The notes below the pieces were generated by a model. That model was not told the DNA's origin and did no database searches. It saw nothing but the letters and a program-made list of their open reading frames with translations. From Rhodococcus triatomae (GTDB lineage Bacteria > Actinomycetota > Actinomycetes > Mycobacteriales > Mycobacteriaceae): 64,000 nt of DNA. Shown piece by piece: positions 40,787-55,445 of this stretch (within the stretch, counting starts at the first letter, position 1; each line of letters begins with the position of its first letter). The stretch lies in the NCBI RefSeq assembly GCF_014217785.1, contig NZ_CP048814.1, positions 3,038,001 through 3,102,000 on the forward strand, read 5' to 3'. The position numbers were made by a program, and so were the translations under genes.

Positions 40787-41979
40787 GCAGCGACGACACC
40801 GTTCTCGTCATCAACTCGGGTTCGTCCTCGATCAAGTTCCAGGTGATCGAACCCGATTCCGGTGTCGCCCGCCAGTCCGGTCTCGTCGAGCGCATCGGCG
40901 AGCCCGAGGGTCGAGTGGTCCTGCACCACGACGGGGAGGTCCTCGAGGAGGTCGGTCGGATCGAGGACCACCGTTCGGGACTGCGCAAGGCCGCCGAACT
41001 GATGGCGTCGGTCGGTCATCCCCTGCCGGAATCCGGCATCATCGCGGTCGGTCACCGAATCGTGCACGGCGGCAGCGAGTTCTACGAACCGACCCTGGTC
41101 GACGATCGGGTGTTGAAGGAGATCTCGACGCTGTCCGACCTTGCACCGCTTCACAACCCCGCCAATGTCGTCGGCATCGAGGTCGCACGGGACACGCTGC
41201 CGGACGTTCCTCAGGTCGCCGTCTTCGACACCGCGTTCTTCCACACCCTGCCCATGCCCGCCGCGACGTATGCGATCGACCGGGACGTCGCCCGCGAGTT
41301 CGGTATTCGCCGCTACGGATTCCACGGGACCTCACACCAGTACGTGTCCGAGCGGGCCGCGAAAGTCCTCGGCCGCGGCACCGACGAGATCGACCAGATC
41401 GTGCTGCATCTCGGCAACGGGGCGTCGGCGTCGGCGATCGCGAAGGGCCGGGCCGTCGACACCACGATGGGATTCACCCCGCTCGAGGGACTGGTGATGG
41501 GGACTCGTGGCGGCGACATCGATCCCGGAGTGCTGTTGCACCTCTCCCGCACGGCCGGGATGACGGTCGACGACATCGACGCCCTGCTCAACCGCAGGTC
41601 CGGGCTGTGGGGGCTGTCCGGAGTGAACGACTTCCGTGCCCTCACCGAACGGATCTCTGCCGGAGATCAGGACGCGCAGCTCGCGTACGACGTCTACGTG
41701 CACCGGCTCCGCAAGTACATCGGCGCCTACCTGATCGAACTCGGGGGAGTGGATGCGATCACCTTCACCGCAGGTGTCGGGGAGAACGCCGCGTCGGTGC
41801 GCCGGGACGCGCTCGCCGATCTCGAGATGTTCGGCATCGTGATCGACGACGACCGGAACGAGAACGGTCAGGGGGAGCGGCGGATCTCGGCCGACTCGTC
41901 CTCGGTGGCGGTACTGGTGGTACCGACGAACGAGGAACTGGCGATCGCCCGGGACGCTGCTCGGCTGGTGCGTTCCTGA
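40783..41979 (+). CDS. ackA: Acetate kinase
   Basis: A 398-residue ASKHA-fold kinase. Signatures [16 protein letters not shown] at the N-terminus, [19 protein letters not shown] and [10 protein letters not shown] cover the nucleotide and acetate sites. It makes ATP and acetate from acetyl phosphate produced by Pta. The 3' end overlaps the tail of the convergent acyltransferase reading frame by 112 bp, which helps explain why that frame is dispensable at its end. Confidence 0.95.
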
Positions 41980-43104
41980 CGACGGTCACGCAACCCGAAC
42001 ACCCACTCGAGGCTCCGGTGCAGCACCCACGCGATCGGGATCGACAACACCGTCGTCACGATGAAGACACCGACCACCGAGCCCTGGAACGTCGAGTAAC
42101 CGAGTAGATCCATGACGAGTTCCATGACCACCAGGTGCACCAGGAACAACTCGTAGGAGATCTCGCCCAACCACACCACGGCCGGGTGTGAGAGCGCTCG
42201 TCCGTAGAGCCCACCGCCGTCGCTGCCGATCACGAGCGGAGCGAGCAGACACATCGAGAACGCCAGGTACAGGAACGACTTGGTGATCGCGGCTCCCGCA
42301 TCCTGCGGGATGATGGTCGCCTCGCCCGCGGCGGGGGTGCACGAGAGTGCGTAGGCGGCCACCGCTCCGAGCAGCAACAGCGGGGTGCTCACCCGGCGGA
42401 TCGTCACCGCCGCCACGGTCAGCACCATCCCGCCGGCGAACCAGGCGAGGAATCCCGGCAACCACAGCCGGGCCGAGTAGTCGATGTCGGCGGAGTGGGT
42501 GAAGACCACCCACGCCGGGGTCACCGCGGCCACCGCGCAGAGCGCGCCGACGAGCCGTCCCGGGTGCCAGCCACGGCGGCACACGAGGACACACAGTGCC
42601 CAGGCCAGGACGGGAAGTATCAGGTAGAAAGCCACTTCGACGGCCAGGCTCCACATCTGCGTGAGTCCCGCGTGGAAATGGCCGAGCCCGTAGATCTGGG
42701 TGAGTGTCATGTTCCGGAGGAATCCCTCGACGCCCTGCCCCGTCTCGCCGGCGTCGCGGTGCCGGTAGACGAGATTACGTCGAGATCACGACGAGCCAGT
42801 ACGCCGGGAGGATCCGGCGGGCGCGGTGCCGGAAGTAGCGAGTGAGGCTCGGACCCGAGGTGCCGCGGGCCAGTGCCGTCACCCAGGGGCGGAACAGCAG
42901 GAACCCTGACAGCACGAAGAACACGGCGACGCCGGCCTCGAGCCGCGCGAAGAACCACCCAGCGGTGTCTTCTGTGTAATTTCCCGTCCAGAAGCCGGCG
43001 TGGGTGCCCACCACCAGCAGCGCCGCGAATGCCCTCAATCCGGTGATCGAGTCGATGCGGCTGGTGGGAGCGTCGGGGACATCGGACGGATCTGTGCTGA
43101 CCAT
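41868..43104 (-). pseudogene. Acyltransferase-3 family gene split by a frameshift
   Basis: The N-terminal part (from ATG 43104) reads RIDSITGLRAFAALLVVGTHAGF ... GVAVFFVLSGFLLFRPWV ... RRILPAYWLVVIST and stops at 42775-42777. The rest continues in another frame: NLVYRHRDAGETGQGVEGF then LRNMTLTQIYGLGHFHAGLTQMWSLAVEVAFYLILPVLAW, and about seven more spans. Both parts are standard OafA-like membrane O-acyltransferase sequence that joins at the same point, so one lost base near 42778 explains the break. The active-site His in THAGF is kept. Either a recent pseudogene or a sequence error. Confidence 0.85.
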
Positions 43105-43504: not shown

Positions 43505-43721
43505 GATCGGCCTGTCGACTCCTTCCGAGTACATGGAGCAGGTCTCACCCCGCGCAGGAGTGTGACTGATGCTACTCGCTGGTAACTACGTTGCGCCACA
43601 GTATTCGTCAGGGGCGACGAGGGCTCCTTCGGGTCGGCCTCGGCGCGTCGCGCTGCTCGTCCGACATTCAAGTTAGTGTGGGTAAGTTGATGGGTGCGGC
43701 GAGGTGAACTGGAGGTTCCGG

Positions 43722-44366
43722 ATGGCAGGCCGGCCGTCGGAGAGACAGGAGCGCCGCAAGCAGCGCACGCGGTCGCAGATTCTGTCAGCCGCGCTGGAAG
43801 CCTTCTCCGAACGCGGCTATCAGGCGGCCACGGTCTCGGACATCGCCGAGCGTGCCGACGTCGCCCTGCGTTCGGTATATCTCCACTTCGAGGACAAGAG
43901 GGGACTCTACGCCGCTCTGATCGATCACGCGCTCGAACTCGACCGCGAATACTGCGACGCCGGATGGGACGCCGCCGACGATCCGATCGGCCGCATCCAG
44001 GGTATCGCCGAGGGGTATCTCCGTTTCTACCGTGAGCAGCCGGGGTACTTCCGGATCTTCCGGTTCCCGCCTTCGGACGTGTACGGCGACCCACACCTCG
44101 ACAAGCCGACGCAGCACGTCGCCGACCGGATCGCGAGCGAGATCGACCGGATGTCGACGGCGGTGACGGAGGCGATCGACCTCGGGCTCTTCCGTCCGGG
44201 TTCGCCGCGAGCGATCGCCACGTACATGTGGGCCTCGTGGGACGGCGTCATCGCGTGTCACATGATGCCCGGTCACATGGGCTTGAGCGACGACGAGTTC
44301 GAGGACGTGCTGAACGAGGCCAGGGCCATCATCGCCTTCGGTCTCCTGCGCGCCGACGTGTCCTAG
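43722..44366 (+). CDS. TetR-family regulator at the head of the lipid cluster
   Basis: A 214-residue TetR protein. QRTRSQILSAALEAFSERGYQAATVSDIAERADVALRSVYLHFEDKRGLYAALIDHAL is the DNA-binding region. The ligand domain is rich in aromatic residues (YLRFYREQPGYFRIFRFPP), as in regulators of fatty acyl or lipid ligands. GGAGG (43711-43715) supports ATG 43722. It is codirectional with, and 402 bp upstream of, the acyl-lipid operon, making it the first candidate to bind the related sites at 44584 and 56469. Confidence 0.82.
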   Translation: MAGRPSERQERRKQRTRSQILSAALEAFSERGYQAATVSDIAERADVALRSVYLHFEDKRGLYAALIDHALELDREYCDAGWDAADDPIGRIQGIAEGYLRFYREQPGYFRIFRFPPSDVYGDPHLDKPTQHVADRIASEIDRMSTAVTEAIDLGLFRPGSPRAIATYMWASWDGVIACHMMPGHMGLSDDEFEDVLNEARAIIAFGLLRADVS

Positions 44367-44768: not shown

Positions 44769-45896
44769 ATGTTGCTCGCAAACGAAGGCTGTCTGCTGGA
44801 GGCTCGGCTGCCCGAGTTGTTCGAAGCTCTGAATGCCGCGTCGCTCGACGAACTCGAATCCGAGGGTGGGCCGGCGATCAAACTGTTCAAGGGATCCCGC
44901 GCCGGCCGCCTGCTGGCTCCGGTGGAATCCGGCGGGCTCGGTGCCTCGGCGCTCGACGCGGTCCGTATCCAACGTGCGGTCGGCGCGCGAGCACCGTCGC
45001 TCGCCGTCGCGAGCACGATGCATCACTTCTCGCTGGCGAGCCTGATGGAGGCCGCGCGAGGTGGCGACGGTGCGCACCTGCTGCTCCTCGAGGCGATCGC
45101 GGGAGAGAACCTCCTGATGGCCTCGGGGTTCGCGGAGGGGACGACCGGTGCGAGCGTACTGACGCCGAGCCTGTCGGCCGAACGGGTCGAGGGCGGGTAC
45201 CGACTGGACGGCGCCAAGCGGCCGTGCAGCCTGGCGAGGTCGATGGACCTGCTCACTGCGAGCGTCTCGGTCGACTCCCCGGTCGGGCCGGAACTTGCCG
45301 TCGCGGTCGTTCCGGCGTCCGCCGAGGGCATCGAGGTCGAACCGTTCTGGAATGCCACGGTTCTCCGGGCCGCCGAGAGCGATGCCGTCGTCCTCACCGA
45401 CGTGCGCATCGCGGAGCCCCAGCTCGTCCGGGTCGGGGTCCCCGGCGCCGCGGCGGTCGATCAGGTCCAGCAGGCCGGATTCGTCTGGTTCGAACTACTG
45501 ATGACCGCGAGCTACCTGGGCATCGCGGCGCGACTGGTGAATCGGGTACTCCGAGAGGAGCGGGGCGGCCCGGTGCGGCGTGCGCTGCTCGCCGGCGGTC
45601 TCGACACCTGTGCCGGCGCGATCGACGCGATCGCCGCGGAGCTCGATCGGGAGGGAGCCGGACAGCAGCTGCTCCGCCGAGTTCTCCTGGCCCGCTATAC
45701 GACACAGAAGATCATCGCGCAGAGTGTGGACGAGTCCGTCGAGTTGCTCGGCGGAATGGCGTTCATTCGCGGTGACTCGGACATCCGCTACTTCGCCGAG
45801 GCGACTCGATGCCTGGCATTTCATCCACCCGGTCTGCCTCGGGCCGCTCCGGCGTTGCTCGATTCGCTTGCCGGACAGCCACTCCGGATCGTCTGA
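44769..45896 (+). CDS. Acyl-CoA dehydrogenase-like protein 1
   Basis: A 375-residue protein with an acyl-CoA dehydrogenase outline: an N-terminal helical part, a middle beta region (GGYRLDGAKRPCSLARSMDLLTASV) and a C-terminal four-helix part (FELLMTASYLGIAARLVNRVL ... ESVELLGGMAFIRGDSDIRYFAEATRCLAFHPPG). The usual flavin motif is altered: ASGFAEGTTGAS stands where active enzymes have xTEPxAGSD. It may be a desaturase acting on an ACP-bound chain, a flavin monooxygenase, or a non-catalytic partner of the second dehydrogenase. First gene of the operon, 39 bp before the SDR gene. Confidence 0.75.
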   Translation: MLLANEGCLLEARLPELFEALNAASLDELESEGGPAIKLFKGSRAGRLLAPVESGGLGASALDAVRIQRAVGARAPSLAVASTMHHFSLASLMEAARGGDGAHLLLLEAIAGENLLMASGFAEGTTGASVLTPSLSAERVEGGYRLDGAKRPCSLARSMDLLTASVSVDSPVGPELAVAVVPASAEGIEVEPFWNATVLRAAESDAVVLTDVRIAEPQLVRVGVPGAAAVDQVQQAGFVWFELLMTASYLGIAARLVNRVLREERGGPVRRALLAGGLDTCAGAIDAIAAELDREGAGQQLLRRVLLARYTTQKIIAQSVDESVELLGGMAFIRGDSDIRYFAEATRCLAFHPPGLPRAAPALLDSLAGQPLRIV

Positions 45897-45935
45897 ACCA
45901 CATCCGCACCGACAACACCACCGATGGAGAATCCC

Positions 45936-46961
45936 ATGAGTAGTGACCAGACGAAGATTCTCGTGACCGGGGCGTCCGGAGTGATCGGGCGGTCCCTGCT
46001 CGAAGCGCTGCGTTCTCGCAGTGTCGTCGCGCTGGAACACCAGAGCCGTGTGCACGAGGAATCCCACGTGCAGTGGGTTCGGGGCGACGTGACCGCGACG
46101 GATCTCGGCCTCGGTGAGCAGTACGACGCCGTGGCCGCTTCGGTCACGCACGTGGTGCACATCGCCGCGGCGGTCGACTTCAACGTCGAACCGCAGTCGA
46201 TCGAGACGATCAACCTCGGCGGGACGCGCAACGTCGTCGCCTTCGCACGTGCGGCGGGAGCGCCGCTCGTGCACGTGAGTACCGCGTTCGTCGACCGGCG
46301 TGAACAGGCACTGTCGGTGTCCGGTTGTGCGGACGGTAGGGACGCCTATCTGCGCTCGAAGACGCTCGGCGAGCAGGTGGTCCGGGAGAGCGGCCTGGAC
46401 TACGCGATCGTGCGGCCCTCGCTGCTCGCGGGCGACGTGGGTTCGGGCGAGATTCCGCGCCATCAGGGCCTTCATGCCTTCCTGGGCGCCTATGCCAAGG
46501 GCGCCCTCCCGTTCGTGCCGTTCCCCGAGGACACCTACATCGATTTCGTTCCCCGTGACGTGGTCGCGGCCGCGATCGCTCGCCTACTGTCGGTCGACCT
46601 CACCGGTCAGGAGCTGTGGCTGACCGCGGGACGCGGTTCGCTGACGGCTCGGGCCCTCGTCGACCTCGTCCGCGGCACTCTCGCACCGGCGGGTGTGCAC
46701 CTCGACAGCCCCCGGTTCTTTCCCACGGAGACGGTGCAGCGGCTCCTGCAGCCCGCGTTCTTCAGTGAGCTCGAGGGTCGGGACCGCAACAAGTTCGAGC
46801 ACCTGCTCGCCGTCGCCTCGGTCTTCGCGGACGAGGTGTTCCCCTCGGATCTGGGGAAGGGGGAGCTGTCCGGCCTGGCTCTGTCCGAGAACGATTCGGC
46901 AGCGTTGATCGAGGCGACGGTCGATCGGTACTGGACGCCTGCACTGCGCGAGGCGATCTGA
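45936..46961 (+). CDS. Thioester-reductase-like SDR (NAD_binding_4 type)
   Basis: A 341-residue extended SDR. The nucleotide motif TGASGVIG is at residues 11-18. The catalytic set is Ser 115/Thr 116 (HVST) and Tyr 138-x3-Lys 142 (YLRSK). The layout, including IVRPSLLAGDVGSGE and YIDFVPRDVVAAAIARLL, follows fatty acyl-CoA/ACP reductases and the R-domains that release NRPS or PKS products as aldehydes. Here it would reduce the acyl thioester on the ACP to an aldehyde. ATG 45936 follows GGAGA; it overlaps the aminotransferase start by 1 bp. Confidence 0.78.
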   Translation: MSSDQTKILVTGASGVIGRSLLEALRSRSVVALEHQSRVHEESHVQWVRGDVTATDLGLGEQYDAVAASVTHVVHIAAAVDFNVEPQSIETINLGGTRNVVAFARAAGAPLVHVSTAFVDRREQALSVSGCADGRDAYLRSKTLGEQVVRESGLDYAIVRPSLLAGDVGSGEIPRHQGLHAFLGAYAKGALPFVPFPEDTYIDFVPRDVVAAAIARLLSVDLTGQELWLTAGRGSLTARALVDLVRGTLAPAGVHLDSPRFFPTETVQRLLQPAFFSELEGRDRNKFEHLLAVASVFADEVFPSDLGKGELSGLALSENDSAALIEATVDRYWTPALREAI

Positions 46962-48214
46962 TGCCCGCCACCGATCGGGCGGCGCTGGTCGGCCGGTACC
47001 GCCGCTATCTGGGTGCCGGGCGCGCCCGGCTCGCCGAGTACATCGGCGCGGGTATCGAGGTGTCCTCGTCCGGGAGCACCGTGACCACCGCGGACGGTGC
47101 GTCGCTGCTGGACTGCGGCGGCTACTCGGTGTTCCTGCTCGGACACTGCCACGAGGCCGTCGTCGAGGCGGTCGTCGAGCAGGTGCGCCGGCACCCGCTG
47201 GCGACCCGGCTGCTGCTCGAGCCGACGATCGCCGAGGCGGCGCAGGCGCTGGTGTCGCTCGCGCCGGAGGGGCTGGACAAGGCGTTCCTGGTCAACTCCG
47301 GCGCGGAGGCCACCGAACTCGCCCTGAAACTCGCTCGGGCACATGGCCGTACCGAATTGGTGTGCATGCGCGGTGGATATCACGGGAAGACGCTCGGTGC
47401 GCTGTCGGTGACCTCCAATCAGCTCTACCAGTCGCTGTTCGCTCCGCTTCTCGACGCCACGGCCGTGGACTACGGCGATCCGGATGCACTTCGCGAGGTA
47501 CTCGCCGGTGTACCGGGCCGCGCCGCGGTGATCCTCGAACCGGTCCTCGGCGAGGGCGGGGTCGTCGTCCCGCCGCGCGGATACCTCGCCGAGGTGGAGC
47601 GACTGTGCCGGCAGTACGACGCGACGCTGATCGTCGACGAGATCCAGACCGGCCTCGGAAGGTGCGGCCGGACGTGGGCGCACCAGCCCGAAATCGAGTG
47701 TCCGGACATCCTTCTCGTGGGCAAGGCATTGTCCGGCGGGGTGGTTCCGGTGGCGGCGGTCCTGGCAACGGACGTGCTGTTCAAGCCGGTCGCCGACGAT
47801 CCGGCACTGCACTCGTCCACGTTCGGCGGGTCGCCGCTCGCCTCTGCCGCGGTGCTCGCCACGCTCCGAACCCTCGACAGGGAACGGATCGTCGAACGTG
47901 CCGGAGAACTCGGCGACATCCTGCTCCGGGCCGTCGTCGACGTGTGCGCCCCGTACCGGGAGCTGATCGTCGAGGTCCGCGGCGCCGGACTGCTGCTCGG
48001 AATCGAGTTCGTCCGCCCCGACGTGACCGCCGAGGTGGCGACGACGATGTTGCACCACGGCGTCATCGTCAACCACTCGCTCAACGATCACGCGGTCCTG
48101 CGGATCACCCCGCCGGCCGTGATGACCCCCGACGAGGTCGAACGACTCGTCGACTGCCTACACCTGAGTCTGGACGAAGTCTCCCGGAGCTTCGTCGCGC
48201 TCGCCACTACGTGA
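46961..48214 (+). CDS. Class III PLP aminotransferase
   Basis: A 417-residue fold-type I, class III transaminase. Phosphate-binding SGAEATE at 113-119, Asp 226 in IVDEIQTGLGR and the PLP Lys 255 in VGKALSGGVVP are all present. Class III enzymes typically use omega-amino groups or aldehydes, including acetylornithine, diaminobutyrate and long-chain aldehydes. Coupled by 1 bp to the reductase gene, it should convert the fatty aldehyde to a primary amine. The amino donor is unknown. An ornithine- or lysine-type role seems less likely in this context. Confidence 0.85.
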   Translation: MPATDRAALVGRYRRYLGAGRARLAEYIGAGIEVSSSGSTVTTADGASLLDCGGYSVFLLGHCHEAVVEAVVEQVRRHPLATRLLLEPTIAEAAQALVSLAPEGLDKAFLVNSGAEATELALKLARAHGRTELVCMRGGYHGKTLGALSVTSNQLYQSLFAPLLDATAVDYGDPDALREVLAGVPGRAAVILEPVLGEGGVVVPPRGYLAEVERLCRQYDATLIVDEIQTGLGRCGRTWAHQPEIECPDILLVGKALSGGVVPVAAVLATDVLFKPVADDPALHSSTFGGSPLASAAVLATLRTLDRERIVERAGELGDILLRAVVDVCAPYRELIVEVRGAGLLLGIEFVRPDVTAEVATTMLHHGVIVNHSLNDHAVLRITPPAVMTPDEVERLVDCLHLSLDEVSRSFVALATT

Positions 48215-48225
48215 AGGGACATCCC

Positions 48226-48705
48226 ATGCCAGTCATGATCATCGAGCGCGAGATCGAGCACGCTCACGCACACGAGGTGTACGAACGGATCGCGGACGTC
48301 GAGAGCTATCCGACCGTTGCCGCGAGCATTCTGCAGGTCCAGGTGACCGATCGGGACGGGGATCGGTGCACGTCGCACTGGGACGTCGCGTTCCGCGGCG
48401 GCATCCTGCGATGGGTCGAATCCGACGAGTTCGACCGGGTGAACCTGCGGTCGACGTTCGAGCAGGTGGACGGAGACCTCGCGGCCTTCCGCGGATCCTG
48501 GTCGGTACAGGACCTCGAGCCCGGCGTCCGGATCACGTTCACGGCGGAGTTCGATCTCGGAATGCCGAGTCTGGCAGCGATGCTCGATCCGGTTGCGGAG
48601 CGAGCGCTCCGCGCGAACATCACCGAGCTCATCGACGCGTTCAGCAGCGAACAGCCCTCCGCCGGCAGGCTCGTCGCCGCGGACTCCACCGGAAAGGGAC
48701 AGTGA
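48226..48705 (+). CDS. SRPBCC/START-type polyketide cyclase-like protein
   Basis: A 159-residue helix-grip protein of the Coq10/cyclase type. MIIEREIEHAHAHEVYERIADVESYPTVAASILQVQV is the classical start, followed by VAFRGGILRWVESDEFDRVNLRSTFEQVDGDLAAFRGSW and a long C-terminal helix. These proteins bind hydrophobic ligands in a deep pocket, and act as cyclases, aromatases or lipid carriers. Between an aminotransferase and an ACP gene it may shield or hand over the alkyl intermediate. It starts 11 bp after the aminotransferase stop. Confidence 0.8.
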   Translation: MPVMIIEREIEHAHAHEVYERIADVESYPTVAASILQVQVTDRDGDRCTSHWDVAFRGGILRWVESDEFDRVNLRSTFEQVDGDLAAFRGSWSVQDLEPGVRITFTAEFDLGMPSLAAMLDPVAERALRANITELIDAFSSEQPSAGRLVAADSTGKGQ

Positions 48706-48707
48706 AC

Positions 48708-48965
48708 ATGGCCGGGGACATCCTCACGGATCTGGTCGACGTGGTCCGTACCGAACTCGCGGTCGGTGTCGTCGACATCGACGCCGGCTCCGATCTGACG
48801 GCAGATCTCGGACTCGACTCCGTCGCCTTCGCCATCGCCATCGTCGCGATCGAGGACCGGTTCGGGGTCCGTCTCGCCGAGGAGGAGCTGTTCGCGTGCC
48901 GCACCCTCGGCGACGTGGCCGGGCTGGTCGGTAGGCAGCGTGACGCGGTGGTGACCGATGCCTGA
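48708..48965 (+). CDS. Acyl carrier protein
   Basis: An 85-residue stand-alone ACP. LGLDSVAFAIAIVAIEDRFGVRL is the phosphopantetheine site, with Ser 38 as attachment residue. An acidic N-terminal helix precedes it. It starts 2 bp after the SRPBCC stop and overlaps the ligase gene by 8 bp, so it is almost surely the acceptor of the acyl-AMP made by that ligase and the carrier for the dehydrogenases and the reductase. Confidence 0.9.
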   Translation: MAGDILTDLVDVVRTELAVGVVDIDAGSDLTADLGLDSVAFAIAIVAIEDRFGVRLAEEELFACRTLGDVAGLVGRQRDAVVTDA

Positions 48966-50631
48966 CACCGGGGTCGCCTCGCGCACAGACCTCGTCTCGG
49001 AGATCTCGGCGGCCATGGACACGGGACGCACCCTCGGTGTCCTGGACAAGGCCGACGGCAGCTGGATCCGCCGGCCGTGGAGCGACGTGTACCTCCGCGC
49101 GGAGGCGTACGCGGCGCGGCTGCTCGATCCGCGATCCGGTTCGCCCACCGCACCGGTGGCGGTGGTCGGCGAGCCCACCGCGGAGACGGTGTCCGTCCTG
49201 TGTGGGGCGTGGCTCGCGGGCCGGGCGGTGACCGTGCTCGCCGGTCCCGTGCGCACCGCCACGCCGGAGGCGTGGGTGCGTCGCACCCTCGACCAGTTCG
49301 AAACCCTCGGTGTGACCGCGGCATTCAGCTCGGGGACACCGCTCGGTCTGTTACGCGAGGCGGACACGGTCGGTGAGGTGTTCGATCTCGCCGAGGTCTC
49401 GCGGTGGCCGGGCGCACCGTCGTCGTTCCGCCCGGTGCCGGCCGCGGAGGACGCGACCGTGCTCTACCAGGGGACGGCCGGGTCCACGGGCAACGCGAAG
49501 ACGGTGCAGCTGACGGCGTCTGCGGTGACGGCGAACATCCGTGCGCTGCAACAGCGAGTGGCCCTGGACGGCTCCCGGGATTCGCTGGCCACGTGGCTGC
49601 CGCTGTACCACGACATGGGACTGTCGATGCTGCTCGCCGGCCTGTTGTCGGGTACGCAGACGTGGTTGTCGCCGACGTCGTGCTTCGCGCGTTCGCCGTT
49701 CGACTGGCTCGACTGGCTGACGGTGAGCGAGGCGACCATCACCGCGGCCCCGAACTTCGCGTACAGCCTGCTGGGCCGGTACGCGTCCGGCGCGGCGAAG
49801 GCGGACCTGGGTGCGCTTCGCCATGCCATCAACGGAGGTGAGCCGATCGACGTCGAGAGCACCGAACGGTTCGCTCGCGAGTTGTCGCGATTCGGGTTCG
49901 ATCCCCGCGCCGTCGCCTGCGCCTACGGCCTGGCCGAGGTGACGTGCGCGGTGACCATGCCGTTGCCGTCGTCGGGTCTGGAGACGGACACCGTGACCGC
50001 GAAGGACGGGCGGGAACGTCGGCACGCACTGCTGGGCCCGGCGCTCGACGGAGTCCGGCTCCGCATCGCCGAGACCCGGCAGTCCACCGAGTTCGACGGG
50101 GTGCGCTCCGTCGGCGAGGTCGAGGTCTCCTCTCCCGCACAGATGAAGGGCTACCTCGGTGAACCGGACCTGGTTCCGGGCGGGTGGGTGAAGACCGGGG
50201 ACCTCGGCTACCTGGTGGACGACCAGCTGGTGGTGTGCGGCCGGAGCAAGGAGCTGATCACCCTCGCCGGGCGCAACATCTTCCCGCAGGACGTGGAGGC
50301 GGCCGCGGCACGGGCGGACGGTGTCCGCACCGGTTGCGTCGTCGCGTTCGCCGACGATTCGGTGCTCTCGACGTCGTCCGGCGGCGGTGCCGCGCGCCGG
50401 GACCGACTGGTCGTGGTCGCCGAGTACGTCGGGTCGGATCACGCGGCCGCCCGGCGCGAGATCGGCGAGTTGGTCGCCTCCGAGTGCGCAGTCACCCCGG
50501 GGGCCGTCGAACTCGTGGGCGCGGGCACCCTGCCCAAGACGACCTCCGGAAAGCTCCGGCGGCTCGAGGTGAAGAGCAGGTTCGGTGCGTCGGCCGGCGA
50601 TCCGGCGCACGGCGGGGGTGTGCGCCGATGA
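48958..50631 (+). CDS. Fatty acyl-AMP ligase (FAAL-type)
   Basis: A 557-residue adenylate-forming enzyme. The P-loop-like GTAGSTGNAK is at 172-181. The A8 region reads LVVCGRSKELITLAGRNIFPQDVE, and GRNxxPQD (438-445) is a hallmark of FAALs rather than CoA ligases. The A10 Lys is residue 532 in PKTTSGK. It would activate a fatty acid as acyl-AMP and pass it to the ACP encoded just upstream. An 8-bp overlap with the ACP gene supports the partnership. Chain length cannot be read from sequence. Confidence 0.87.
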   Translation: MPDTGVASRTDLVSEISAAMDTGRTLGVLDKADGSWIRRPWSDVYLRAEAYAARLLDPRSGSPTAPVAVVGEPTAETVSVLCGAWLAGRAVTVLAGPVRTATPEAWVRRTLDQFETLGVTAAFSSGTPLGLLREADTVGEVFDLAEVSRWPGAPSSFRPVPAAEDATVLYQGTAGSTGNAKTVQLTASAVTANIRALQQRVALDGSRDSLATWLPLYHDMGLSMLLAGLLSGTQTWLSPTSCFARSPFDWLDWLTVSEATITAAPNFAYSLLGRYASGAAKADLGALRHAINGGEPIDVESTERFARELSRFGFDPRAVACAYGLAEVTCAVTMPLPSSGLETDTVTAKDGRERRHALLGPALDGVRLRIAETRQSTEFDGVRSVGEVEVSSPAQMKGYLGEPDLVPGGWVKTGDLGYLVDDQLVVCGRSKELITLAGRNIFPQDVEAAAARADGVRTGCVVAFADDSVLSTSSGGGAARRDRLVVVAEYVGSDHAAARREIGELVASECAVTPGAVELVGAGTLPKTTSGKLRRLEVKSRFGASAGDPAHGGGVRR

Positions 50632-51788
50632 CCGTGACGATATCGGACGTCGACGAACGCGTGGAGTTCTCGACATTGCTGGACAGTGTGTTCGACGAGC
50701 GGGTGAACGGGCTGATCGAGGAGGCGGATCGGACGGGCACGTTCCCTCGCCAGATCATCGCGGCGTTGGGCGACGCCGAGGTGTTCGCCCGTAAGTGGCA
50801 GCGAGGGCACGTCCCCGATCTCCATCTGCTGTTCGCGCTCGCGGAGCGGCTGGGCCGTACCGGGTCGGCGGGCATCTCCGTCGGCGTCAGCCTGCACGAT
50901 TCGGCGATCGCCATCCTGCGCAGGTTCGCCCGCTCCGACATGCTCGTCGATCTGACCGAGCGGGCGATCCGCGGGGACGCCGTCGTGTGCCTCGGCGCGT
51001 CCGAGGCCGGGGGCGGCTCGGATCTCCAGGTCGTGCAGTCCACGGCGACTCCGGTCCCGGGCGGGTATCGGGTCCGGGGTGCCAAGAAGTTCGTCTCCCT
51101 GTCGACGGTGGCCGACGTGGTGCTTGTCGTCGTACGGGCGGGTGACACCGCGCGCAGCGCCGGCGAACTCGCTCTGATCGCGTTGGACCGCAACGACGTC
51201 GAGGTCGGCCCCGCCTACGAGAAGCTGGGTGCGCACTGTCTGGAGACGGCCCCGATCACGTTCGACGTGGAGGTGCCCGCCGAGGCGTTGGTGGCCCGTG
51301 CCGGAACCGGTCTGGCGGCACTGAGCTGGGGTCTGGCACAGGAACGGCTCTCGATCGCCGGACAGGTGGTCGGCGCGTGCGATCTCGCGATGGGAATCAC
51401 GGTGGCGAGGCTCAAGTCGCGTGAACAGTTCGGTAGCCGGTTGTTCGATCACCAGGCGCTGCGGCTTCGGTTCGCCGACCTGCAGGCGCGGCTGGACGTG
51501 TTGCGGTGGGCTCTGCAGGGTCTGGCCGCCTCGGGCCAGGTCCCCAGCATCCGCGCGGCGTCGGGGCTCAAGGTCACCGCCGCGCGTCTCGGGGAGGAGG
51601 TCATGTCCGAGTGCCTCCACGTGTTCGCCGGGGCCGGCTATCTGGTCGGTCAGGCACCTGTCGAGAAGTGGTGGCGTGAAATGAAACTGGCGCGGGTCGG
51701 CGGCGGGGCCGACGAGGTGTTGTGGGAGCTGGTCGCGACCGGTCTCACCCCTGATTTCGACGGCTACGCACGGACGGTGAGCGAATGA
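50628..51788 (+). CDS. Acyl-CoA dehydrogenase 2
   Basis: A 386-residue flavin dehydrogenase. GASEAGGGSDLQVVQSTATPVPGGYRVRGAKKFVS is close to the standard flavin and substrate motif, followed by the helical domain (GLAALSWGLAQERLSIAGQVVGACDLAMGITVARLKSREQFGSRLFDHQALRLRFADLQARLDV). It probably introduces a double bond in the acyl chain, by analogy with ACP-acting dehydrogenases such as those of tambjamine and prodiginine-like pathways. 4-bp overlaps with both neighbours. This copy, unlike the first dehydrogenase-like gene, looks catalytically complete. Confidence 0.87.
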   Translation: MTVTISDVDERVEFSTLLDSVFDERVNGLIEEADRTGTFPRQIIAALGDAEVFARKWQRGHVPDLHLLFALAERLGRTGSAGISVGVSLHDSAIAILRRFARSDMLVDLTERAIRGDAVVCLGASEAGGGSDLQVVQSTATPVPGGYRVRGAKKFVSLSTVADVVLVVVRAGDTARSAGELALIALDRNDVEVGPAYEKLGAHCLETAPITFDVEVPAEALVARAGTGLAALSWGLAQERLSIAGQVVGACDLAMGITVARLKSREQFGSRLFDHQALRLRFADLQARLDVLRWALQGLAASGQVPSIRAASGLKVTAARLGEEVMSECLHVFAGAGYLVGQAPVEKWWREMKLARVGGGADEVLWELVATGLTPDFDGYARTVSE

Positions 51789-53074
51789 CCGCCCTGACGA
51801 ACGCGTCGGCGGCCGACGAGGCGTCACTCACCGGACTCGACGAGTTCTTTCTCGGCATCGAGAGCGCACGACGACCGACACACTGGGCACTCGTCTTCGA
51901 GCTGAGCACGGACGGTGCGGAGATCACGGCCGACGAGCTGACCGAGCGGATTCGCGAGCGAGTCGCCACGTCCGGTCTCTTCCGGCTCGCACTCTCCGGA
52001 ACCGGTCGCCGGGCCCCTCGCCTGGTCGAGGCGGTCGACTGGGATCCGGCACGGAACGTCGAGATCTGCCGGACGGTCGGTGACGAGGCAGGCGATGCGC
52101 TGGTCGAACGGCTGATGTCCGAGCCGTTGCCCAGGGATCGTCCGCTGTGGCGCGTGGTGGCGGTGGAGCAGGAACGTCCACGTCGGCGGCGGATCGTGTT
52201 GGCTGTGCACCATTGCATGTCGGACGGGATCGCCGGGGCCGGCTTCGCGCGTCTGCTCGCCGACGGCGACGAGGCCGGATTGGCGCACCTCGACCGGTAC
52301 GTCGACTCGGACCGGTTCCGCTGGTCCTCCCCGGGCCGGGCCGTCGTCTCCCGGGCTGCCCGTTCCTTCGTCGCGTCCTGGCGGGGCGCGCGGCGCTCGC
52401 CCGGGTTGGCTCCCCTCGCATCCGGGCAACGCCGGGTGCGGACGGCGGCGGTGCCGGCCGTCGACTTCCGTGCTTCCGCCGTGGCCAACGGTGCAGGGTC
52501 GGCCGACTATCTCCTCGTCCTGGTCGAGGAATCGTTGCGCCGCGCCGCCGAGATCGCCGGGCTCGAGCCGGGGCCCGGCCGGGACGGGGTGCGGGTCCTC
52601 ACCCCGGCGACGTTGGACCCGAGCCTGCGGCACACCGGGAATGCCGTGTCGATGACGCTGGTCAATCTCACTCTGGCTCCCCGATCCCGCGTGGACGCAC
52701 TGGGGGAGATCCGGGCGCAGTTGGTCTCGGCCACGGAATCCGGAACCCAGCACGCCATCCCGGCCGTCTCGGCGCTGGGTGCCCACCTGCCGTGGGGTCT
52801 GCGCAAGGCCGCGTCACGGCGCACCGTGGCCACGATCAGGCCCGACATCCACGTCGGCCTCAACCCCGCGTACCACTCGATTCGCACGGTGCTCGGGCGC
52901 GAGGTCGGGAGTATCCGGCCGGTGTCGCCGCTACTGGGAAATTCGCTGTCGGTCACCAGTGTGCTGACCGGTGCGGAGCTCAGCGTCGGAATCACCTGGG
53001 ACCCGGTGGCACTCGGCGATTTCGGGGCCGACTTCGCCGCCGCGCTCGTTCACGCCGTGAGCGTGGCGAGCTGA
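51785..53074 (+). CDS. WS/DGAT-family acyltransferase
   Basis: A 429-residue condensing acyltransferase. The motif HHCMSDG at 142-148 (HHxxxDG) is the catalytic centre, and SLTGLDEFFLGIESARRPTHWALVFEL opens the family. The C-terminal NPAYHSIRTVLGREVGSIRPVSPLLGNSLSVTSVLTGAELSVGITWDP is typical. WS/DGAT enzymes join an acyl-CoA to a long-chain alcohol or diacylglycerol. Here an amine nucleophile is a plausible alternative, giving an N-acyl alkylamine. Shares 4 bp with the upstream gene; 52 bp before mmpL. Confidence 0.86.
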   Translation: MTALTNASAADEASLTGLDEFFLGIESARRPTHWALVFELSTDGAEITADELTERIRERVATSGLFRLALSGTGRRAPRLVEAVDWDPARNVEICRTVGDEAGDALVERLMSEPLPRDRPLWRVVAVEQERPRRRRIVLAVHHCMSDGIAGAGFARLLADGDEAGLAHLDRYVDSDRFRWSSPGRAVVSRAARSFVASWRGARRSPGLAPLASGQRRVRTAAVPAVDFRASAVANGAGSADYLLVLVEESLRRAAEIAGLEPGPGRDGVRVLTPATLDPSLRHTGNAVSMTLVNLTLAPRSRVDALGEIRAQLVSATESGTQHAIPAVSALGAHLPWGLRKAASRRTVATIRPDIHVGLNPAYHSIRTVLGREVGSIRPVSPLLGNSLSVTSVLTGAELSVGITWDPVALGDFGADFAAALVHAVSVAS

Positions 53075-53126
53075 CTCGCGGCACCGTCCACCGGGCCGGA
53101 TGCCATTCCAACGATAGGGATACTCG

Positions 53127-55445
53127 ATGCAGGACAAGAAGTTTCGGCGGCTGATTCTGATCCTCTGGCCGGTGGTATTGGTGGCGCTGGGGATACCCGC
53201 CCTGGCGGTGCACGACCGCGTCGGTGAGCCGAACCTGACGGTGAGCGGCAGCGCCTCCGAGCGCGCCGACCAGATCCTCGACGAGAGGTTCCCGGGATCG
53301 ACTGCCGTCGCGATCCTGCTCGAAGGCCCCGCGGACCAGGTCCGGATACAGGGAACGCGTCTGGCCACCGAGCTCGACGGTGCAGGGTACGGGCCCGTCG
53401 TCACGCCGTGGACCGACGACTCGGTGGCCGACGTGCTCGCACCCGAGCCGGGCACCGCGTTGTTGCTCGCCATGACCGGTGGATCCGAAGGCGCCATGAA
53501 GGACGCCGACGTGATCGTCGACCGGGTGGACGAGGTGATCGCCGACCCGGTGGCGGCGTCGATCACCGGCGAGGGAGTGGTGGGGAGCGCCCTCGAAGAG
53601 GCGGGCGTACGAGAACTCCGCAAGGGCGAACTGTACGCGCTGCCCCTGCTGATCGTGATCCTCCTGCTGGTGTTCCGGTCCCTGCTGGCCGCCGCGATCC
53701 CCATCGTGATCGGGGGGTCGGTGCTGATCGCGACGTCGGGCGTACTGAGCGTGCTCGCCGGTGCGGTCTCGCTCGACTCGCTGGCCATCAGTATCGCCTC
53801 GATGATGTCGCTGGCACTGGGCGTCGACTACTCGCTGTTGATCGTCTCCCGATTCCGGGAGGAACTCGCGCGCGGGCTGCAGCCGTGGGAGGCGGCCGCG
53901 CTTGCCCGGCGTACGGCCGGACGCACCGTCGTCGAGGCCGGCTGCGTTCTGCTCGCCGCGGTGAGTGCCGCGTTGCTCGTGGCTCCCGGCCCCTTCCTGG
54001 TGTCCGCGACCGTGGCGGTCGGTGCCGCCGCGGTCATGAGCGTGATCGCCGCGGTGGGAATCGTGCCGGTGCTGCTCGGCTTCGCCGGCCGCCGGATCAA
54101 CGGGCGGCGTGGCACCCGGACGCAGGAAACGGAGGGCGGCGTCGTGCTGCGCGCCTGCCGCCTCGCGCTGCGACGTCCGGTGCCGGTCGGGTTGCTGGTG
54201 CTGCTGGTCCTGATCCCGCTGTCCCTTCCCGCACTCGGAATGCGCACGGGGACACCCGGTGTGGAACTGCTGACGAAGGGCGAGCGTGCGCTCGCGGACT
54301 ACACCCGTATCTCGGAGGTGATGGGGCCGGGGTGGTCGGCGCCGTTCATCGTGGTGGCGCAGAACCCCGACGGCCCGGTCACGACGCCGGCACTCCTGAC
54401 CGAGCTCAGTGAACTGGAGGGCGAACTCCGCGAGACCGAGGGGGTCGCGGAGGTGCTGGGAGCCGGGGCGGTGGCCGACCGGCTGCTCTCGGTCGAGTCG
54501 CTCGATCCGCCGGCCCTGCTGTCCGCCGCTCGTTCGGCGGGGGTGGACGTGGGCCCGATGATCGCCCAGTCCCCGAACGTCCTGCAGTCCGGGTACCTCG
54601 GCCTGGCCGCTCTCGACGGGGCCCGCTCCGATCTGCGTGGACTCGCGGCGACGGTGGTCAACATCGATCTGGGCGGGGACACCGCACGTTTCGTGGTGGT
54701 CCCCGATGCACCGGCGGGGAGCCCGGAGGCCGTCCGGCTCTCGGACGAACTACGCTCGGCGGCAGAGAGTCTCGCCGGGTCGACGGGGATGACGGTGGTG
54801 GTCGGCGGGTCGGGCCAGCTGGTCGTCGATTTCGGCAAGGAGATCACGAGGTTGGTTCCGCTCCTTCTGCTGGTGTTGTCCGGGGCCTCCTACCTGGTGC
54901 TCGTCGTCCTGCTCCGGTCCCTGCTCGTACCCCTGGTGGCAGTGCTGCTCAACGTCCTCACCGTCGGGGCGGCGTTCGGTGTCCTGGCCCTGCTGTACGA
55001 CGGGACGGTCGGGCCGGAGCAGGTGCCCGTCTACATCGCGGGCACGGCCGTACTGGGGATCATGGGCATCATGTTCGGCCTGTCCATCGACTACCAGGTG
55101 TTCATGCTGTCGCGCATTCGTGAAGCGTGGCTCCGCACCGGAGATCCGATCGCGGCGATCAACGGCGGCATCGTGGGTACCGCCCGGGTGATCACCGGCG
55201 CAGCGCTGGTGATGATCGCGGTGTTCACGGGCTTCGCGCTCACCACCTTCCCGGTCAACCGGCAGTTGGGAATCGGGCTCGTGGTCGCCGTCCTGGTCGA
55301 TGCCACTCTGCTCCGGCTGCTGCTGTTGCCCGGCGCCCTGAAGCTGCTCGGTGCCCGGGCGTGGTGGTGGCCGGGCACGCCCCGCCCGCAGGTCCGCACC
55401 GAGGTCGAGCCGGAGCGCCAGGAACTGGTGCGCGCGGGAGAGTAG
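53127..55445 (+). CDS. MmpL-family RND lipid exporter
   Basis: A 772-residue RND protein with two MMPL halves, each with a long extracytoplasmic loop after TM1 and a bundle of spans. The Asp-Tyr proton-relay pairs are 234-235 (GVDYSLLIVSRFREE) and 655-656 (SIDYQVFMLSRIREA). MmpL proteins move lipids and lipopeptides across the inner membrane in mycolic-acid bacteria. As the last gene of the operon it should export the assembled lipid. No MmpS gene is adjacent. The 52-bp gap contains no terminator that I see. Confidence 0.93.
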   Translation: MQDKKFRRLILILWPVVLVALGIPALAVHDRVGEPNLTVSGSASERADQILDERFPGSTAVAILLEGPADQVRIQGTRLATELDGAGYGPVVTPWTDDSVADVLAPEPGTALLLAMTGGSEGAMKDADVIVDRVDEVIADPVAASITGEGVVGSALEEAGVRELRKGELYALPLLIVILLLVFRSLLAAAIPIVIGGSVLIATSGVLSVLAGAVSLDSLAISIASMMSLALGVDYSLLIVSRFREELARGLQPWEAAALARRTAGRTVVEAGCVLLAAVSAALLVAPGPFLVSATVAVGAAAVMSVIAAVGIVPVLLGFAGRRINGRRGTRTQETEGGVVLRACRLALRRPVPVGLLVLLVLIPLSLPALGMRTGTPGVELLTKGERALADYTRISEVMGPGWSAPFIVVAQNPDGPVTTPALLTELSELEGELRETEGVAEVLGAGAVADRLLSVESLDPPALLSAARSAGVDVGPMIAQSPNVLQSGYLGLAALDGARSDLRGLAATVVNIDLGGDTARFVVVPDAPAGSPEAVRLSDELRSAAESLAGSTGMTVVVGGSGQLVVDFGKEITRLVPLLLLVLSGASYLVLVVLLRSLLVPLVAVLLNVLTVGAAFGVLALLYDGTVGPEQVPVYIAGTAVLGIMGIMFGLSIDYQVFMLSRIREAWLRTGDPIAAINGGIVGTARVITGAALVMIAVFTGFALTTFPVNRQLGIGLVVAVLVDATLLRLLLLPGALKLLGARAWWWPGTPRPQVRTEVEPERQELVRAGE

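Follow-up and report, generated by a model that had tools for sequence, protein, structure and literature searches.

A nine-gene operon of Rhodococcus triatomae combining a fatty-hydroxylamine cassette with a mycobactin-type acyl block: a tentative route to two-chain hydroxamate lipids

The region of the Rhodococcus triatomae genome analysed here, a window of 64,000 nucleotides (positions 3038001-3102000 of the 4.77 Mb single-contig genome), contains an operon of nine plus-strand genes at window coordinates 44769-55445. The first gene (44769-45896) encodes a protein of the acyl-CoA dehydrogenase (ACAD) fold, designated ACAD1, which on homology, context and tree position is predicted to be a VlmH-type flavin-dependent amine N-hydroxylase. 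It is followed by genes for a thioester-reductase-like short-chain dehydrogenase/reductase (SDR; 45924-46961; Pfam NAD_binding_4, 110.9 bits) that would convert an acyl thioester to an aldehyde, a class III aminotransferase (46961-48214; Aminotran_3, 279 bits) that would convert the aldehyde to a fatty amine, and an SRPBCC protein (48226-48705; Polyketide_cyc, 68.5 bits). Beyond these lie genes for an MbtL-like acyl carrier protein (ACP; 48708-48965), an MbtM-like fatty acyl-AMP ligase (FAAL; 48958-50631), an MbtN-like putative acyl-ACP dehydrogenase designated ACAD2 (50628-51788), a WS/DGAT-type acyltransferase (51785-53074; PF03007, 63.7 bits) and an MmpL transporter of the RND type, the proposed exporter (53127-55445; MMPL, 212.7 bits). 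The intergenic gaps are 27, -1, 11, 2, -8, -4, -4 and 52 bases, giving four overlapping gene pairs and a maximum spacing of 52 bases; the first-pass annotation, which described nine codirectional, tightly packed genes, is thus confirmed in coordinates, strand and gaps. It is also upheld in that there are no genes for non-ribosomal peptide synthetases (NRPS) or polyketide synthases (PKS) within the operon.

A Pfam family can be assigned for each of the nine genes, although for ACAD1 this is the ACAD middle domain only and is below threshold (27.5 versus 33.3 bits). The catalytic motifs claimed previously are all present and kept in aligned relatives: the SDR has GxxGxxG and Y142xxxK, with YxxxK in 8 of 8 relatives; the aminotransferase has its pyridoxal phosphate (PLP) lysine at K255 (11 of 11); and the WS/DGAT has HHCMSDG at 142, with HHxxxDG in all eight aligned rows, which represent six distinct genes. 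The ACP has the expected serine at S38. The SDR scores under the cut-off of TIGR01746 (82 of 213 bits), its assignment coming from NAD_binding_4, and its best solved matches are a PKS chain (E 9e-11) and MxaA (E 2e-8), both of which we take to be reductase domains. The WS/DGAT is likewise below the cut-off of TIGR02946 (106 of 310 bits) and contains both the WS_DGAT domain and the HHxxxDG motif.

Comparison by tblastn with the loci of relatives (given L numbers here) indicates that the operon consists of two gene sets that travel apart, which we refer to as module A (ACAD1, SDR, aminotransferase and SRPBCC) and module B (ACP, FAAL, ACAD2 and WS/DGAT). The arrangement does not arise by chance, since both parts are met again in other loci: genes 1-4 form a cassette that has an SDR in 10 loci and an aldehyde dehydrogenase in six, and genes 5-8 make up a block of their own.

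Module A resembles the early part of the pathway proposed for the azoxy compound azodyrecin, in which a dehydrogenase gives an aldehyde, a PLP transaminase gives an amine and a VlmH/VlmR-like pair gives a hydroxylamine, before VlmA-, VlmO- and VlmB-like proteins act (PMC9379638). The same order supports the earlier assignment of the reductase and aminotransferase to a fatty-amine module. We defined a cassette locus by an aminotransferase match above 300 bits together with an SRPBCC gene, so that the presence of SRPBCC in all 16 such loci follows from the definition. Each of the 16 holds exactly one aldehyde maker, an SDR in 10 and an aldehyde dehydrogenase in six, never both and never neither; L025-L030 were found by an SDR search, so the SDR there is not an independent observation, and L029 is cut by a contig end. 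Among 31 contexts (30 with ACAD1), VlmA is present in 15, VlmO in 14 and nitric oxide synthase in three, where VlmA in L091 was counted from a fragment at the end of the sequence read, and L030 and L142, which supplied probes, are themselves included; in 10 of the 31 there is neither a cassette partner matching at cassette strength nor an N-N gene. The 31 include L141-L145, which we picked from 15 long matches; L031, which has no ACAD1 match, was excluded from the table of contexts, and L154 (unannotated), L155 and L156 fall outside the counts. MmpL-type matches occur in 9 of the 16 cassette loci. In a tree of aminotransferases those of the cassettes, the window copy among them, lie on one side and eight others lie opposite, with a support of only 78/94. 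The SRPBCC protein is possibly a lipid-binding helper of the cassette.

The association with azoxy genes is seen most clearly in L030, where the cassette adjoins genes for a flavin reductase, a VlmA-like LPG_synthase_C protein and a small membrane protein, together with a further protein, for which Pfam gives nothing convincing, that is 52% identical to one annotated as VlmB-like; L027 carries the same set and L028 all but VlmB. The L030 membrane protein is 56% identical to the neighbour of a VlmB-like gene in Streptomyces NBC_00887 and has D51, H82, H110 and D114, the residues reported as essential in VlmO (PMC11705231), at exactly those positions, as have 9 of 10 further VlmO candidates. The VlmO relative at L028:5276-5788 keeps D51 and H82 and lacks H110 and D114 in the frame read, and there is one TGA inside the match. 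On plasmids of Streptomyces NBC_00887 and NBC_01267 there is a row of genes for an aldehyde dehydrogenase, ACAD1, aminotransferase, SRPBCC, a small protein and a VlmB-like protein, with a flavin reductase gene inside the cassette row in NBC_00887 and about 9.5 kb away in NBC_01267. The linear plasmid of Streptomyces sp. NBC_00212 (L156) carries a valanimycin-type cluster with genes for a PLP decarboxylase, seryl-tRNA ligase, ketol-acid reductoisomerase, MmgE/PrpD, DUF2156, flavin reductase and VlmB-like proteins, which is matched by the VlmA, VlmO, VlmB and flavin reductase probes; an MGMT family protein and a methylated-DNA methyltransferase are also encoded nearby. On homology and context, module A can be identified as the fatty-hydroxylamine cassette of aliphatic azoxy clusters.

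Other settings of these genes were also seen. A gene for a nitric oxide synthase oxygenase adjoins the cassette in L025, L026 and L141 (the last on a plasmid of Nostoc sp. C052), where there is no VlmA, VlmO or VlmB match; such loci, in actinobacteria and cyanobacteria, perhaps make N-nitroso-hydroxylamine lipids. In L093 and L094, from two genomes of one genus, the four-gene cassette adjoins a gene that starts MPELPEVEALAQF and presumably resembles the DNA glycosylase Fpg, with no N-N gene match in the 20 kb read. In L155 (Nostoc UHCC 0926) an ACAD1 relative lies beside adenylation and decarboxylase genes and not in a cassette.

VlmH has the ACAD fold, and in azoxy clusters and those of the valanimycin type the position of VlmH is filled by relatives of ACAD1 at 42-46% identity. 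In L156 the protein in that position, which adjoins the DUF2156, flavin reductase and VlmB-like genes and which we treat as the VlmH counterpart by its place in the cluster, is 43.7% identical to ACAD1 over 99% of its length. Since VlmA and VlmO are encoded near about half of its relatives and this 44% identical flavoprotein lies in the VlmH position, ACAD1 is probably an amine N-hydroxylase that acts on the fatty amine; a role as a second desaturase is disfavoured, and the previous reading of both ACAD proteins as desaturases must be revised. In a tree of 26 rows, rooted at the midpoint and with the plasmid rows left out, the window and L091 copies are sisters (support 100/100), L091 being a locus with VlmO, VlmB and a piece of VlmA, and the two fall within a group of 16 rows that includes nine labelled azoxy and four with the cassette only.

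Module B points to mycobactin biosynthesis. The best NCBIfam models are PRK05883, which we take to be MbtL, for the ACP (69.2 of 72 bits), PRK05851 (MbtM) for the FAAL (608 of 621 bits) and NF037942 (MbtN) for ACAD2 (516 of 700 bits), all scores being under the curated cut-offs; ACAD2 also matches the solved MbtN structure 4xvx (E 3e-131). Neither these best models nor the structural match were noticed in the first-pass annotation. The glutamate in the QERLSIA segment of ACAD2 is kept in 7 of 7 aligned MbtN-type relatives. In mycobactin biosynthesis MbtL, MbtM and MbtN feed MbtK, and the enoyl chain of the block is the acyl donor. The earlier proposal that the ACP-bound unsaturated chain must become the amine is therefore not supported, as the same block is found in mycobactin-type and other siderophore loci, where its chain would be donated instead. 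On homology and context we would identify module B as the mycobactin MbtL-M-N acyl block with an acyltransferase attached.

That acyltransferase is not the GNAT enzyme MbtK, which has no match in the R. triatomae genome at E 1e-4; the WS/DGAT gene adjoins that for ACAD2 instead. Among 397 genomes of the order (R. triatomae included), 28 others have ACAD2 relatives at E 1e-90, and within 1.5 kb on each side of the MbtN relative there is MbtK in 20 of these loci, a WS/DGAT in six, neither in two and both in none; L032, an MbtN-type locus with an MbtK match, is not among them. In L038, L055, L058-L061, L064 (7294-8634) and L066 the gene next to the MbtN relative encodes a WS/DGAT instead of the MbtK of other loci, and we regard these proteins as candidates for the long-chain N-acyltransferase of nocardichelin-like siderophores. 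In nine chosen genomes the best matches of the window WS/DGAT are four such MbtN-linked proteins (E 2e-60 to 7e-65), followed by another gene of one of these genomes (E 2e-33), while paralogues in its own genome match at about E 5e-5. The window FAAL is 46-50% identical to the FAALs that accompany MbtN relatives in loci of the MbtK type and in L034 and L062, but only 33-37% identical to those in L036, L063, L064 and L066. One of the WS/DGAT loci, L064, also encodes IucA/IucC, penicillin amidase, condensation, PLP decarboxylase, Lys/Orn monooxygenase and siderophore-interacting proteins, and resembles the hybrid of NRPS and NRPS-independent siderophore (NIS) pathways discussed for the nocardichelins (PMC12161575), a link that is our own suggestion.

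Each module is already known; their union, seen in none of the other loci read, may define a pathway. The SDR would reduce a long-chain acyl thioester to an aldehyde and the aminotransferase would aminate this to a fatty amine, steps in which we have high confidence, and ACAD1 would, with only slightly less assurance, oxidize the amine to an N-alkylhydroxylamine using reduced flavin from a reductase encoded elsewhere, with the SRPBCC protein as a helper. We are as confident as for the amine that the FAAL would load a fatty acid onto the ACP and ACAD2 introduce the 2-enoyl double bond, in the manner of MbtM, MbtL and MbtN. MbtK (Rv1347c) acts on the lysine side-chain nitrogen in mycobactin (PMC4964394), and because the WS/DGAT takes the place of MbtK we suggest that it could similarly join the enoyl chain to the hydroxylamine nitrogen, a step on which our judgement is evenly divided. 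Export of the product by MmpL is somewhat better than an even prospect; acyl transfer and MmpL export had been put forward as last steps by the first-pass annotation and both are supported, as inferences. The operon would thus have roughly equal prospects of making or not making a two-chain N-alkyl hydroxamate lipid, for which we infer the substrates, chain lengths, N-acyl coupling, product and export.

Several observations weigh against this reading. The ACAD1 tree requires three changes of the azoxy label, a number matched in 46 of 500 shuffles, so that the label is not clearly clustered, and the azoxy rows L098 and L110 fall outside the group of the window copy. The top NCBIfam models for ACAD1 score poorly and point in different directions (PigA dehydrogenase, 44 bits; DszC monooxygenase, 43; FadE16, 43), its solved matches are likewise a mixture of monooxygenases, DszC included, and dehydrogenases, and its assignment as VlmH-like was made through a VlmH counterpart chosen by position. 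The active-site glutamate of ACAD1 is unplaced, the alignment having set a Glu in the ACAD2 column across a gap, and is not used as evidence. Esters are the usual products of WS/DGAT enzymes. In L064 and L066 there follow NRPS-fused proteins with an Acetyltransf_8 domain of the GNAT type, L064 having a condensation protein as well; more than one acyltransferase is therefore present in these clusters, and the WS/DGAT is not proved to be the N-acyltransferase there. Because the L064 and L066 FAALs are only 33% identical to that of the window and are placed after the WS/DGAT, the window block appears to be a mosaic, mixing features of both locus types. The operon has no flavin reductase as VlmR partner, versus matches in 9 of the 16 cassette loci, although there are five flavin reductase (PF01613) genes elsewhere in the genome. 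The VlmB probe was confined to the window, where it gave no tblastn match. Finally, no IdeR-like box precedes the operon, as judged with a 19-base consensus, which speaks against a role in iron acquisition.

The pairing of the two modules was also absent from every other locus inspected. An SDR search of 249 genomes of the order found five others at E 1e-50 and one of 61 relatives found two others at E 1e-20, while an ACAD1 search of 401 genomes of the family found 65 others at E 1e-30; contexts were inspected for 20 of the 70 ACAD1 matches listed and for seven SDR matches (L025-L031), and the ACP-ACAD2-WS/DGAT block was in none of these. Partial matches were seen to ACAD2 in L103 and L110 (weak, 69 and 47 bits) and to FAAL-type proteins in L091 and L107, and L031 has only the SDR and a FAAL-type protein. 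A search of genome contigs with the aminotransferase gave nine loci at no more than 37% identity, five of which served as outgroup rows in the aminotransferase tree, and tblastn found no other operon gene there. Of the neighbourhood that the first-pass annotation proposed to search for, each module recurs separately, but the joint operon does not among these loci.

Among the alternatives, that which survives best, though we consider it unlikely, is a route with a single chain, in which the SDR releases the enoyl chain made by the FAAL and ACAD2, amination and N-hydroxylation turn it into a 2-alkenyl hydroxylamine, and the WS/DGAT adds a CoA-derived acyl group on N or O. There is one ACP in one operon with a thioester-reductase-like SDR, an ACP and a KAS III are encoded within two azoxy-type clusters of Streptomyces, and the azodyrecin alkyl chain does contain an alkene, although its late installation is proposed (PMC9379638). 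Elsewhere, however, none of the 16 cassettes has ACP, ACAD2 or WS/DGAT matches, and only one has a weak FAAL match. The WS/DGAT, moreover, belongs to the siderophore-type block, whose enoyl chain is the acyl donor in mycobactin.

It is improbable that the product is a plain N-acyl fatty amine, formed without N-hydroxylation and with ACAD1 as a desaturase. The reductase, aminotransferase, acyltransferase and exporter are all there, a flavin reductase is not, and PigA, the top NCBIfam model of ACAD1, is a dehydrogenase; but the 42-46% identical relatives in the VlmH position and the solved matches that include DszC argue for the hydroxylase. Slightly less credible still is a siderophore side-chain locus, in which the block of ACP, FAAL, ACAD2 and WS/DGAT would supply an NRPS or NIS pathway encoded at another genomic site. 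The block has homologues in mbtL-M-N and the nocardichelin-like loci, and the genome has a remote relative of Lys/Orn-type N-hydroxylases (31% identity, at 1454337), but the block is packed in one operon with the hydroxylamine cassette, the neighbouring genes that were read include no NRPS (no genome-wide NRPS search having been made), and the iron box is lacking. Within the window the IdeR consensus has two 13/19 matches (14217 and 53220), versus 1.2 expected from five shuffles, neither being upstream of the operon, while L064, L065, L066 and L032 have boxes matching at 15-16 of 19. The product therefore need not be a siderophore, and it may equally well function in the membrane or as an antibiotic. 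An azoxy or other N-N lipid made with enzymes encoded elsewhere is very improbable in spite of a cassette typical of azoxy clusters and a search for the ferritin-like oxygenase VlmB restricted to the window, as the L030 probe gives no match in the genome at E 1e-3 to VlmO, the hydrazine synthase, and VlmA, the tRNA-dependent transferase, has only a weak 26% match, far away in an 890-residue open frame.

The two-chain hydroxamate pathway can be set beside several known systems. The tambjamine genes share with the operon FAAL, ACP, dehydrogenase, reductase and aminotransferase functions. This likeness, which the first-pass annotation had emphasized, is looser than those to azoxy clusters and mycobactin; the operon has a separate SDR and aminotransferase, a probable N-hydroxylase, an acyltransferase and MmpL. 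As a close parallel it was rejected, the aminotransferase scoring far below cut-off on the PigE (317 of 850) and putrescine aminotransferase (340 of 612) models. Azodyrecin and valanimycin-type clusters (Ady2-Ady4-Ady3/10, VlmH/VlmR; the ady sequences lying outside our comparison) have, like the operon, an aldehyde maker, a PLP transaminase and a VlmH-type ACAD flavoprotein, and in the azoxy-type loci L142 and L143 ACAD1, aminotransferase and SRPBCC follow the operon's order with an aldehyde dehydrogenase where the operon has the SDR; the operon differs in having no flavin reductase and a genome without VlmO and with only the weak VlmA match. The mbt-2 locus of mycobactin (MbtK-MbtL-MbtM-MbtN) shares the best models of the FAAL and ACAD2, and ACP, FAAL and ACAD2 are ordered as in L065, but in the operon the WS/DGAT replaces MbtK, an amine-forming cassette is attached, and there is neither NRPS nor IdeR box. 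In the nocardichelin-like loci L064 and L066 a gene for an amine N-hydroxylase accompanies those for ACP, ACAD2, WS/DGAT and FAAL, but these loci differ in gene order and FAAL identity and contain decarboxylase, IucA/IucC and NRPS-type enzymes, whereas the operon has the fatty-amine cassette and no assembly enzymes. In the lipothrenins of Streptomyces aureus a FAAL and an ACP also help to feed a fatty acyl hydroxamate with siderophore activity; there, however, the amine is threonine, N-oxygenation is by the diiron enzyme LitN, probably on the amide, and there is no fatty amine (PMC10616846).

Upstream of the operon, a codirectional TetR-family gene (43704-44366, plus strand; TetR_N, 58 bits; TetR_C_33, 28 bits) ends 402 bases before it and, from its position, likely encodes the operon regulator. 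Further upstream on the minus strand, an acyltransferase-3 protein (41868-43104) is split or frameshifted, its two open frames (42775-43104 and 41868-42710) matching different parts of PF01757.

We found no paper on two-chain N-alkyl hydroxamate lipids, nor on use of the cassette outside azoxy clusters, in a literature search made largely without subscription journals. Our overall proposal, offered tentatively and at somewhat short of even confidence, is of a new class of two-tailed N-alkyl-N-(2-enoyl) hydroxamate lipid made by an azoxy-pathway cassette and a mycobactin block, with the WS/DGAT as hydroxylamine N-acyltransferase and the cassette as a general plug-in that leads to azoxy compounds with VlmA, VlmO and VlmB, perhaps to N-nitroso-hydroxylamines with nitric oxide synthase, and to hydroxamates with the mycobactin block. 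If this is correct, WS/DGAT-fold enzymes would acquire a new reaction, and the protein would be a candidate for the long-chain N-acyltransferase that has only been speculated on for mycobactin-making Nocardia (PMC7413640). The product, if confirmed, would constitute a new lipid class, a membrane-type lipid with a bare hydroxamate head group that would bind iron or other metals and be made without NRPS or PKS, and the operon would illustrate the reuse of a fatty-hydroxylamine cassette with different finishing enzymes.

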